From Chitinophagales bacterium (GTDB lineage Bacteria > Bacteroidota > Bacteroidia > Chitinophagales > JADIYW01): 64,000 bases of DNA. The notes beneath the pieces were generated by a model. It was not told where the DNA came from. It saw only the letters and a list, made by a program, of their open reading frames with translations, and ran no database searches. Below are positions 1,874 to 5,229 of this stretch, piece by piece. Each line of letters opens with the position of its first letter. The stretch's first letter is position 1. The stretch lies in contig JAMLHJ010000002.1 in NCBI GenBank assembly GCA_023957245.1, forward strand, positions 62,001 through 126,000, written 5' to 3'. Position numbers and translations under genes: made by a program.

Positions 1874-3076
1874 TTAATCTTCGTCTTGTGGTATTGGCTC
1901 ATTATTCATAAACGCTTCAAATGCACCAATCGGAGCAAAATCAATATTTATTATGGAATAATCATCTTTATTTCGCCAAAGTCTAACGCTGTCAGTTCCT
2001 TTTTTCTGTAACCATTCACGAGTTACTAATTTTCTATCTTTCAGACCTAAAACATCAATTAAAAGCCATTGTCCGAGTGCAGATTGTCCATAACGTTTTC
2101 CGTTTTCATCTCGTTCGGTATTGCTTCCTGACTGCAAACCTTTCATGTTACTTTGTGTTACCAAAGATGGAATTTTCTTACCATTTGGAAGTTGTAAATA
2201 AAAACGAATTTCTGGTTTATTTTCTTTATTTCCTTGATAACTCTTTTGTACATTTTCAAATTCAAAAATGTCTTTCGTGAAAAAGTTTGGGTACTTTTTG
2301 TGAAACTCTCTCGGAATTGGGATATACACTTCGTTTAACGGTCGTAAAGTAGCACTTCCTTTATTTTTTGGCGCTGCGTTCCATGCATTTAAACCCGATT
2401 TTTCTTCAACTTCTTTTGATTGATAAGAATATAGCGGTAGATAAACTTCTACGATGTTTTTAACAGCAACTTTTGCTTTGTCAATGAAATTAAAATATGC
2501 TTCTAATAAAAATGAAAATGGATCTTCGATAATCTGAATATCAAATTGATGAAGCAAAAGATTGTCCTTTCTTGTGGAATCAAATTTTTGATGGATTTGT
2601 GAATCTCCGAATGTATATCTGTAGTCTTTCTGTCCATCAGACCAATTAAATGATGTAGGAGTTAAATTGAATTTCTTTAAATTGTTCAAATTTATTAATG
2701 GATAAGCACACTCATTGATTACAAATCTACCTTCATCACGAGTTACATAGTGATAAATATTCTTATCTTCCGACAATCCTAATCGGTTATAATCACTTAT
2801 CATTCGTTCATTTTTGATTTCAGAAATTTTATACGCTAATGCCTCAACGTCATTATTTTTAAAAACGCTATTTATTTCATTTTGATATCCTTTGAGCTGC
2901 ATAACCTTTTGGAACGAAGGTTTGCTATGCATCCATGTTTTTAGACCTATCCCTATTCTTTCATCCCCAAATACAGAAACAACATCATGAGGTGTATTCC
3001 TATAGTCAGCAATCTCACTTTTGAAAATTTTGGTAAAAACTGTTTCTTGAAATTTGGAATCAAGATACGGAATCAT
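1874..3076 (-). CDS. Putative restriction-type protein with C-terminal B3-like DNA-binding domain
   Basis: A 400-residue protein, last gene of the cassette. Residues about 225-380 resemble the B3-like DNA-recognition domain of NgoFVII/BfiI/EcoRII-type restriction enzymes. They show KSGLNAWN, RPLNEVYIPIP, a glycine/asparagine-rich middle, GQWLLIDVLGLKDRKLVTREWL, and a final strand ending NIDF. The N-terminal 215 residues do not show the phospholipase-D HxK motif of NgoFVII. They contain D31, D38/E39 and GIGLKTW (42-48, Lys46), which could be a diverged (D/E)xK-type nuclease core. This reading is inference. Gene order with a C5 methyltransferase supports a restriction or effector role. It starts 57 bases after the small CxxC gene. 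Family assignment is from remembered motif patterns only. Confidence 0.6.
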   Translation of the reverse strand: MIPYLDSKFQETVFTKIFKSEIADYRNTPHDVVSVFGDERIGIGLKTWMHSKPSFQKVMQLKGYQNEINSVFKNNDVEALAYKISEIKNERMISDYNRLGLSEDKNIYHYVTRDEGRFVINECAYPLINLNNLKKFNLTPTSFNWSDGQKDYRYTFGDSQIHQKFDSTRKDNLLLHQFDIQIIEDPFSFLLEAYFNFIDKAKVAVKNIVEVYLPLYSYQSKEVEEKSGLNAWNAAPKNKGSATLRPLNEVYIPIPREFHKKYPNFFTKDIFEFENVQKSYQGNKENKPEIRFYLQLPNGKKIPSLVTQSNMKGLQSGSNTERDENGKRYGQSALGQWLLIDVLGLKDRKLVTREWLQKKGTDSVRLWRNKDDYSIINIDFAPIGAFEAFMNNEPIPQDED

Positions 3077-3133
3077 ATTACCTTGCTTTTGGCGAGTTAG
3101 AGAAATCTATTATTCTTTGAGTAAAATTTTTGG

Positions 3134-3340
3134 TTATACTTGAACTAATTTAAAGTTGAGTTTTAAATCACAATCTTTGCAATGAATAGTAGTATTTTCA
3201 TCTACTTCAAAAGCGTTTAAATCAATATTGTAATCATCAGAAAGACTAATTTCGCAGATAGGACAATCAATCGAATCACACATATTTAGTTTGATTGGGA
3301 ACGAATTTACCGAAGGTATTTCTATTGTGTAATTTAACAT
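3134..3340 (-). CDS. Small protein with two CxxC pairs (zinc-ribbon-like)
   Basis: A 68-residue protein with a Cys-rich layout: CDSIDCPIC near residues 21-29 and CKDCDLKL near 54-61. Two CxxC knuckles about 30 residues apart suggest one structural zinc site. There is no signal peptide or membrane segment. Its ATG at 3340 overlaps the end of the upstream DUF3883-like gene by 7 bases, so translation is probably coupled. A role as an adaptor or DNA/protein-binding subunit of the cassette is plausible but unproven; I do not recognise a named family. Confidence 0.7.
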   Translation of the reverse strand: MLNYTIEIPSVNSFPIKLNMCDSIDCPICEISLSDDYNIDLNAFEVDENTTIHCKDCDLKLNFKLVQV

Positions 3341-4104
3341 ACTTCTGATATCAAATGATATTCTTTTGATTCTTTAGACTTGATTATTCTTTCCTCAAAT
3401 TTTAAATTTTTCAAAGGATTTTCAATTGTTAGAAAAGTTGGTAAATCATCTAAATTTAAAACCAAAGTTACGATATAATCATTTTTATATTCTTGAGCTT
3501 TATAATACTCGTTTTCAGTAAGTCTAAATCTTCCTTTCTTCGCTCTAATTCCTTTTATTTCAGCTAAAAATGAACTTTCATTTACATTGATTTGAAAATC
3601 ATAGCCATCTCCATATAAACGAGCATCTTCAATAATTCCATTTTTGAAAATATCAATTGAATTGTAATTGTTCATAAAATACAATTCTGCCTCTAATCCT
3701 GTTTCTTGTAGTTTTTTAAATCTTGATTTTACAATTGGCTTTACTTCAACAAAAACATCTTTAATCTTAAAAATATCTTTCAAAAATAATTTGACAATAT
3801 TTGAATATTCAACTACATTTTCATTTCCAAATAAACTATCAATCAGTAATTTTCTATGAATATAAGCATCTCCTTTTTGCCACCAACCTTTTCTGCTGTT
3901 TTCAAAAAAAGGGTCAAACAAATCCATGCGATTTTTCACAACACTTCCAGTTTCAACTATCCCTATTTCAACAAAATATTCAAAAAATGAAAGTTTAGTT
4001 TTAAAGCCAAATTGCTTGATAAATTCATTATCAAATTTGGCTAATCCATATCCTAATAAATTTAGGATTTCATAATTCTCGTGCTTATTTCCTTTGTTTT
4101 TCAT
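3334..4104 (-). CDS. DUF3883-like putative nuclease subunit
   Basis: A 256-residue protein. The C-terminal half fits the DUF3883 (NO VEIN C-terminal) fold, a PD-(D/E)xK relative. Residues about 136-142 carry a GLEAELYF helix. GDGYDFQI (Asp169) is followed by FLAEIKG (Glu182, Lys184), which gives a D...ExK catalytic pattern, then FRLTENEYYKAQEYKNDYIV. The N-terminal half contains FDPFFENSRKGWWQKGD and is probably a recognition or interaction module. I chose the ATG at 4104. A TTG at 4107 directly abuts the methyltransferase stop, and both genes share one reading frame. It is the likely nuclease of the cassette; specificity is unknown. Confidence 0.68.
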   Translation of the reverse strand: MKNKGNKHENYEILNLLGYGLAKFDNEFIKQFGFKTKLSFFEYFVEIGIVETGSVVKNRMDLFDPFFENSRKGWWQKGDAYIHRKLLIDSLFGNENVVEYSNIVKLFLKDIFKIKDVFVEVKPIVKSRFKKLQETGLEAELYFMNNYNSIDIFKNGIIEDARLYGDGYDFQINVNESSFLAEIKGIRAKKGRFRLTENEYYKAQEYKNDYIVTLVLNLDDLPTFLTIENPLKNLKFEERIIKSKESKEYHLISEVC

Positions 4105-4107
4105 CAA

Positions 4108-5229
4108 TTAAGCAACAAATTTATAATCTTGAAATGCAAAACATTCTTTAGGTGTTAATTTTCTAATTCCAAAATCATCTTTTATCAAAGGAACATTGTG
4201 TCCACCTGCTCCCATATTGGCGGTTAAAGTGGGACAGACATTACTTTTATTTTCTCTTACATAAACTCTCCTCCATTGATAAACCGTATCTTTTTTGGTA
4301 ATCGTTTTTGCGAGCTCAGGATAATATTGGTGAGTTTCAGAATAATAATATTTATCATCTTGTTTGCCTTGTTCCAAAATATCATGAATTGTTTTAGTTA
4401 GCTTAATTTCACTTGGGAATTTAAACTTTTTATAGTTTTTCACTTGTTTTGGATCAAATGCGACAATAAAAATTCGCTCTCTGTTTTGTGGCACGTTTGC
4501 GTGTGTCATTGAGTTCAGCACTTTATGAAACACTTTATAATCTAACTTTTTTTCTAAAATTTCGATGATAACTTTAAAAGTTTTTCCGTTGTCGTGGGAA
4601 ACTAAATTTTTTACATTTTCCAAAAACACAACCTTTGGTCGATGTTTTTCAATAATCTGTTCAATGTCAAAAAATAGAGTTCCTCTTGTGTCGGAAAATC
4701 CTTTTTGATAACCTGCAATCGAAAATGCTTGACAAGGAAAACCTGCACAAAGCACATCAAAATTTGTTGGGATATAATTTTTAGTTTCTCTTTTGGTTAT
4801 ATCTCCAAATGGAATTTCACCAAAATTTTCACGATATGTTCTTTTAGCGTCTTTGTTCCACTCGCTTGTATAAACACATTTCCCTCCAACGCTTTGCATT
4901 GCAATTCTAAAACCTCCAATTCCTGCAAATAAATCTATGAATTTAAAAGTGTAATTTTCAGGCGTTGAAAACGGAACATTTTCAACTTCAAATAAAAATT
5001 GTTGTAGAGCTTCTTCTGCTACAATCGAAATTTCATTTTCGTTTTTATATTCAACGTAGTTTTTAAGAACGGATAATGCGTCTTTTTTGTAATATTTTGA
5101 AACTCCGTTATGTATATTGTGAAGATAATGAGTTAATACGGCTTTCTCTTCTTCAAAAGGTTCAACAAGCCTTGTTTGATAACTTTTGTCATCAAATTCT
5201 TCTATGCTTATTTTCTCTTTTATTAACAT
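4108..5229 (-). CDS. DNA (cytosine-5-)-methyltransferase, C-terminally short
   Basis: It transfers a methyl group from S-adenosylmethionine to C5 of cytosine in a specific DNA site. Visible motifs are I (FIDLFAGIGGFRIA, residues 97-110), the catalytic PCQ loop (GFPCQAFS, Cys166), VI (ENVKN, 204-208), VIII (QNRERI, 248-253) and the start of IX (RKLTPKECFAFQ, 356-367). The protein then ends at residue 373. The usual continuation, with the GNSV/GNAV motif X that completes the cofactor pocket, is absent from both ends of the protein. It carries about 95 extra N-terminal residues. It is the first gene of a leftward four-gene cassette; the next ATG lies 3 bases downstream. Activity is questionable because of the missing motif X. 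Confidence 0.9.
   Translation of the reverse strand: MLIKEKISIEEFDDKSYQTRLVEPFEEEKAVLTHYLHNIHNGVSKYYKKDALSVLKNYVEYKNENEISIVAEEALQQFLFEVENVPFSTPENYTFKFIDLFAGIGGFRIAMQSVGGKCVYTSEWNKDAKRTYRENFGEIPFGDITKRETKNYIPTNFDVLCAGFPCQAFSIAGYQKGFSDTRGTLFFDIEQIIEKHRPKVVFLENVKNLVSHDNGKTFKVIIEILEKKLDYKVFHKVLNSMTHANVPQNRERIFIVAFDPKQVKNYKKFKFPSEIKLTKTIHDILEQGKQDDKYYYSETHQYYPELAKTITKKDTVYQWRRVYVRENKSNVCPTLTANMGAGGHNVPLIKDDFGIRKLTPKECFAFQDYKFVA

Follow-up and report, generated by a model that had tools for sequence, protein, structure and literature searches.

Type II restriction-modification (RM) systems are hard to lose, since losing the methyltransferase (MTase) first kills the cell. The described systems closest to the locus reported here are those of the R.NgoAVII/NgoFVII kind with a HhaI-like C5 MTase, in which the MTase and a restriction endonuclease (REase) carrying RE_NgoFVII_C form an operon. 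RM gene movement has been linked to IS (PMC3031569) and RM genes are known to interplay with mobile elements (PMC4176335); the genes described here likewise lie in mobile, rearranging regions. An open-literature search found no paper on recurrent nuclease cassettes replacing the MTase-REase junction.

We analysed a stretch of 64,000 nucleotides from a Chitinophagales bacterium (the window), which has the features of an RM locus of the NgoAVII/NgoFVII kind, namely a C5 MTase and an REase with a B3-like C-terminal DNA-binding domain, with neither enzyme complete. As in the known systems, these belong to an MTase-REase operon. However, motif X is missing from the window MTase and the N-terminus from the REase, and the two are separated by two foreign genes, one of which encodes a DUF3883 protein. 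The same two-part DUF3883 protein, with 25-31% identity to that of the window, occurs in operons of an MTase, DUF3883, a GHKL/MORC ATPase and a Z1-type gene (loci L146, L167-L169 and a Hymenobacter plasmid), and in L146, L168 and L169 it directly follows the C5 MTase, as in the window. Unlike at the window locus, the MTase of these operons is complete with motif X (L146, L169) and is followed by ATPase and helicase-like genes, neither of which the window has. Operons with a GHKL ATPase, Z1 and an intact MTase seem to be an ordinary home of the DUF3883 family. We consider it likely that the window locus is a dead Type II RM operon in which a two-gene nuclease cassette replaced the MTase-REase junction, and that the operon now serves the cassette.

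The truncated enzymes and the segment between them

The MTase open reading frame (4108-5229, minus strand) encodes 373 residues, the last of which are RKLTPKECFAFQDYKFVA. Residues 1-369 (4123..5229, minus) matched Pfam DNA_methylase (PF00145, E 2.2e-80) and comprise an N-terminal extension of 94 residues, motifs I-VIII (I, IV, VI and VIII seen by profile match), the target-recognition region and the start of motif IX. The matches cover profile positions 1-287 of 324 in PF00145 and 1-296 of 329 in TIGR00675, and thus only the C-terminal end of the MTase is missing. M.HhaI was the best solved relative, in an alignment spanning residues 95-287. Scanning bacterial genomes with the window MTase gave 78 loci, the nearest up to 94% identical. 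Full-length relatives have about 408-411 residues, and the window protein aligns with them through Y369 (FQDY in the window, FQGY in the relatives), at 91-94% identity with L038-L041 up to that residue. The relatives then continue with PMDKYILPPxANSKLYMQAGNSVTTPLIERIxxEIxxVL and a stop codon. The window protein lacks these final residues (about 39), including motif X (KLYMQAGNSV), and has in their place KFVA and a stop (4108..4122, minus). Homology to the L038 MTase ends at 4123, and homology to the L084 cassette, including its DUF3883 gene, begins at 4118, five bases from the MTase edge.

The initial annotation had reported that the MTase ends before motif X and had proposed alignment with full-length homologs as a check. 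That alignment bore it out, with one small correction: homology runs to Y369 and only KFVA is foreign. The same annotation had stated that motif X is missing from both ends of the protein, and this also held, as the C-terminal tail is absent and the N-terminal 94 residues contain no motif X. A circular permutation with motif X at the N-terminus was rejected, as these 94 residues are common to the full-length relatives. A tblastn search with the motif X tail found no match in the window, although the same query matched the relatives' loci, and so no frameshift or neighbouring gene supplies the motif.

In close cassette-less relatives (e.g. L038, L040), a simple operon is found in which the REase directly follows the MTase. 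The best structural match of the REase, found by Foldseek with a full-length relative, was R.NgoAVII (4rct, E 4.5e-07), and the PADLOC Type II REase model PDLC03479 matched the full-length relative L115 over 376 of 376 positions. The window REase (1874..3076, minus; 400 residues from ATG 3076) has a B3-like C-terminal domain (RE_NgoFVII_C, E 2.8e-08) and is 89.7% identical to residues 27-435 of the L038 REase. Homology restarts at residue 27 (about 3103) and an ATG is kept at codon 10 of the open frame; if translation starts at this ATG (3076), the protein lacks the first 35 of the relatives' 435 residues. Positions conserved across 90% or more of the family are among those lost.

Comparison of the window with L038, L040, L039 and L084 by blastn delimited an inserted segment of about 1.02 kb with two genes (3102..4122, minus), and the full-length relatives have at the same place about 0.2 kb comprising the MTase end and the REase start. 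Homology to L038 breaks at 4123 and returns at about 3101-3103, within the REase N-terminal coding region, so that the insert takes the place of the end of the MTase and of REase codons 1-26. Among three options, the initial annotation had offered a deletion joining the MTase to the next gene. This came closest to what we found, but what happened was the substitution of a cassette for the 3' end of the MTase and the 5' end of the REase.

The first inserted gene (3334..4107, minus) starts at TTG 4107 or ATG 4104, right after the MTase stop, and encodes a DUF3883/NOV_C protein of 257 residues (Pfam NOV_C, E 5.6e-15; 55.6 bits against a curated cut-off of 22.1). PD-(D/E)XK-like residues D170, E183 and K185 are invariant across six DUF3883 homologues, and the distant L124 DUF3883 also has DF...E-V-K. 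This conserved D...ExK signature suggests that the protein is probably a nuclease. Its AlphaFold model was of low confidence (mean pLDDT 46.5), and a sequence-based search found no related solved structure. The second gene (3134..3340, minus) overlaps the DUF3883 stop and encodes 68 residues with CPIC and CKDC pairs, resembling a zinc ribbon, with 41.7% identity to an L143 ORF in the corresponding position. The small partner gene of DUF3883 varies from locus to locus, and our guess is that changing inhibitors or specificity partners would show such variation. These two were the only ORFs in the insert and neither matched a transposase or integrase; the DUF3883 gene had no match in viral contigs and phages and one distant match in plasmids.

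Recurrence of the double truncation

A related DUF3883 gene (74-91% identity) also follows MTases of the same family in five further loci, whose carriers include the isolates Epilithonimonas hominis, Flavobacterium restrictum and F. gelidilacus. The MTase is cut at residue 190 in L084, 207 in L093, 271 in L094, 296 in L070 and about 386, before GNSV, in L046, and the first remaining REase residue is 28, 230-241 (leaving the last third), 17, 17 and 31, respectively. All six DUF3883 loci have lost the 3' end of the MTase as well as the 5' end of the REase, compared with none of 37 cassette-less loci (Fisher p 1.6e-7). The MTase fragment is an open frame in six of six, and the REase remnants of L084, L094, L070 and L046 have no ATG, GTG or TTG in their first 78-125 codons. 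Four loci (L039:5367-5681, L115:6224-6541, L052 and L062) have a small, unrelated gene of some 105 codons cleanly inserted between the same two genes, and both enzymes are whole. Because a search with the MTase yielded five of the six cassette loci, the link of DUF3883 with MTases partly reflects ascertainment; two of four further close DUF3883 loci, found by a DUF3883 search, follow MTase remnants.

A DUF3883 search covered some 1,100 additional genomes, from the class and two related orders. The gene was whole in L141, where about 25 MTase residues are left; in L165, where it directly follows an MTase of another family cut after motif I (64 residues); and in L142 and L143, which have no MTase. 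Cassettes without an MTase were also seen in L166 and L170. In F. restrictum a DUF3883 paralogue lies after another C5 MTase damaged at motif X and before an HNH-containing protein. At L141:6039-6539 (minus) a Vsr-like endonuclease ORF continues in frame into the start of the MTase and a later piece of it, right before DUF3883. Upstream of the solo cassettes of L142 and L143 is a truncated or frameshifted Xre-like ORF (MNIKEKFGFKVKQLREQK...), possibly the remnant of a controller gene.

HNH_2 nucleases were found in the position that DUF3883 has in the window, directly after C5 MTase fragments, in L076, L077, L175 and L176, where the MTases break off at about position 172-175 or at 285 of the 315 in the profile. 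The HpaII-type REase that follows in L076 has, like the window REase, been trimmed at its N-terminus, with the first 104 profile positions gone (RE_HpaII 105-359 of 359). However, both the nuclease family and the RM types differ from those of the window. A second such case is present in the genome of the window itself (G000 contig 17, L007:587-1635, minus), where an 85-residue C5 MTase remnant with motif I joined to motif X ends in PVLMAA, with an HNH_2 nuclease and an 896-residue ATPase-like protein just downstream. In L176 (G1340 contig 1, 3260-5620, minus) the HNH_2 gene separates the N-terminal part of an MTase from a C-terminal MTase part that has motifs IX-X, as though it had been inserted within an MTase gene. 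Replacement of the junction, with defined breakpoints and with damage to both enzymes in every cassette locus of the family, recurs on different branches and in other RM families.

Fate of the operon and origin of the cassettes

On the dead-operon reading, the cassette, a DUF3883 nuclease of PD-(D/E)XK type with a small partner, replaced the junction and removed the motif X end of the MTase together with the N-terminal start of the REase. The cofactor site of such an MTase would be unable to close and the enzyme unable to methylate; inactivity, suggested in the initial annotation, is very likely, as judged from the missing motif X. The REase would have to be inactive as well, because otherwise the cell would cut its own DNA, and the cell would thereby survive the loss of the MTase. 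The cassette would be the part now under selection. It would be expressed from the former MTase promoter, the MTase fragment upstream serving as a leader ORF that stops a few bases short of the DUF3883 start, and would act with its small partner as a DNA-cutting defence nuclease. Ongoing decay is supported by MTase remnants that shrink (L141, L165) or vanish (L142, L143) while DUF3883 stays whole. On the other hand, both damaged window genes are still open frames, the REase has its ATG at codon 10, and pairwise dN/dS of the window genes (0.05-0.07) is not raised, although this is a weak test of relaxed selection for an undated event. As read from the sequences, the event may be young, or the damaged genes may still have a role.

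Such a role might be non-catalytic, the N-terminal 94 residues binding DNA and regulating the operon, or the fragment serving as a subunit of a complex with DUF3883 and the shortened REase. MTases of the M.SsoII type are regulators of their own operons (PMC6100179), and the fragment is open at all six loci with dN/dS as low as between full-length genes. However, breakpoints spanning residues 190 to 386, the still shorter or absent fragments beside whole DUF3883 genes in L141, L165, L142 and L143, and an REase reduced to its last third in L093 make this explanation unlikely. The initial annotation had also raised the possibility that motif X is supplied by another subunit. Split C5 MTases do exist, M.AquI being an example, but this idea gained no support, as no window ORF, DUF3883 included, carries motif X, and the sister MTases cut at 190-296 lack the target-recognition domain and motif IX too; we regard an active enzyme as very improbable. 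An assembly or base-calling artefact can practically be dismissed, as the same arrangement is present in the three isolate genomes.

How the cassette reached these loci is a further question. An insertion that happened once in an ancestor, just before motif X, and then spread by homologous recombination via the MTase and REase flanks until in-frame deletions eroded it, would explain why DUF3883-type loci share the tail DNA (C/T)TTGTTGC(T/A)TA(A/G) and the -VA frame, why the MTase is never kept beyond about residue 389 nor the REase before residue 17, and why L070 and L141 have a common breakpoint, GKQADNLY. However, in both the MTase and the REase trees the cassette loci are scattered beside different full-length relatives and a single clade was rejected (p-AU 1.1e-7 and 9.8e-61, respectively). 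The window and L084 have DUF3883 genes that are 91% identical, yet their REases are from subfamilies about 31% identical, and other MTase families were hit as well. A derivation of the -VA tails from MTase codons 380-384 was rejected, the DNA match being no better than chance. We consider one insertion with subsequent spread, rather than many independent insertions, plausible but less likely than not. The sequences are consistent with either repeated entry or spread by recombination through the flanks, the shared tail DNA and nested breakpoints leaving room for the latter. The cassette could also be a selfish or homing-like element targeting C5-MTase operons, the double truncation then arising because only insertions that remove both functions together survive. 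Two nuclease families have repeatedly hit the same junction in several kinds of RM system (NgoAVII-like A and B, HpaII-type and HNH-type), the window's genome holds a second case, and dispersed palindromes lie at several cassette edges. But homing would insert at a single precise site and keep both flanks, whereas here the edges vary and both flanks are lost; no transposase or integrase was found in the insert, some cassettes have no MTase, and the palindromes belong to an abundant repeat that matches 18 to 85 or more times in a flavobacterial genome but once, weakly, in that of the window. We find a selfish element rather unlikely.

If the dead-operon reading is correct, these loci suggest a route by which RM systems are lost and replaced, in which one event removes the MTase end and the REase start and places another nuclease under the old promoter. 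The repeated replacement in related bacteria suggests that restriction systems die and are succeeded by a different nuclease in this way time after time. Many genes of this kind annotated as 'DNA cytosine methyltransferase' would then be dead leaders of another defence gene, which matters for methylome prediction and for the discovery of defence nucleases.

Fragment tails and palindromes at the cassette edges

Most MTase fragments that precede a nuclease cassette terminate in -(V/A/I)A, far above background and with varied codons (window 4108-4116; L084, L093, L094, L070, L076, L077, L176, L177, L179 and L145). A C-terminal A was found in about 12 of 16 fragments, compared with 5.7% for long ORFs of these loci overall and 8.75% for those with another gene starting nearby, an excess inflated by related junctions and shared palindrome ends. 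Part of it comes from the shared cassette end and the dispersed palindrome.

The palindromes, of about 90-100 bp, are inverted at left junctions and direct at right ones (L084:6620-6711, L094:6698-6793, L046:7175-7264, L076:5790-5883, L077:5793-5882 and L144:3741-3834). Their enrichment is partly circular, as the covariance model was built from the cassette edges. We rejected them as site-specific recombination ends, since they are a common flavobacterial repeat, and kept them as a lead.

A broader proposal, which we put forward tentatively and consider doubtful, is that Type II RM operons are systematically taken over, through junction replacement, by nuclease cassettes made up of DUF3883 or HNH_2 and a variable small partner, this being the one deletion that takes away antidote and toxin at once. 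The -(V/A/I)A ends of the leftover MTases would then perhaps act as ssrA-like degradation tags. The host tmRNA tag, GDNNYALAA, ends in LAA, not LVA.
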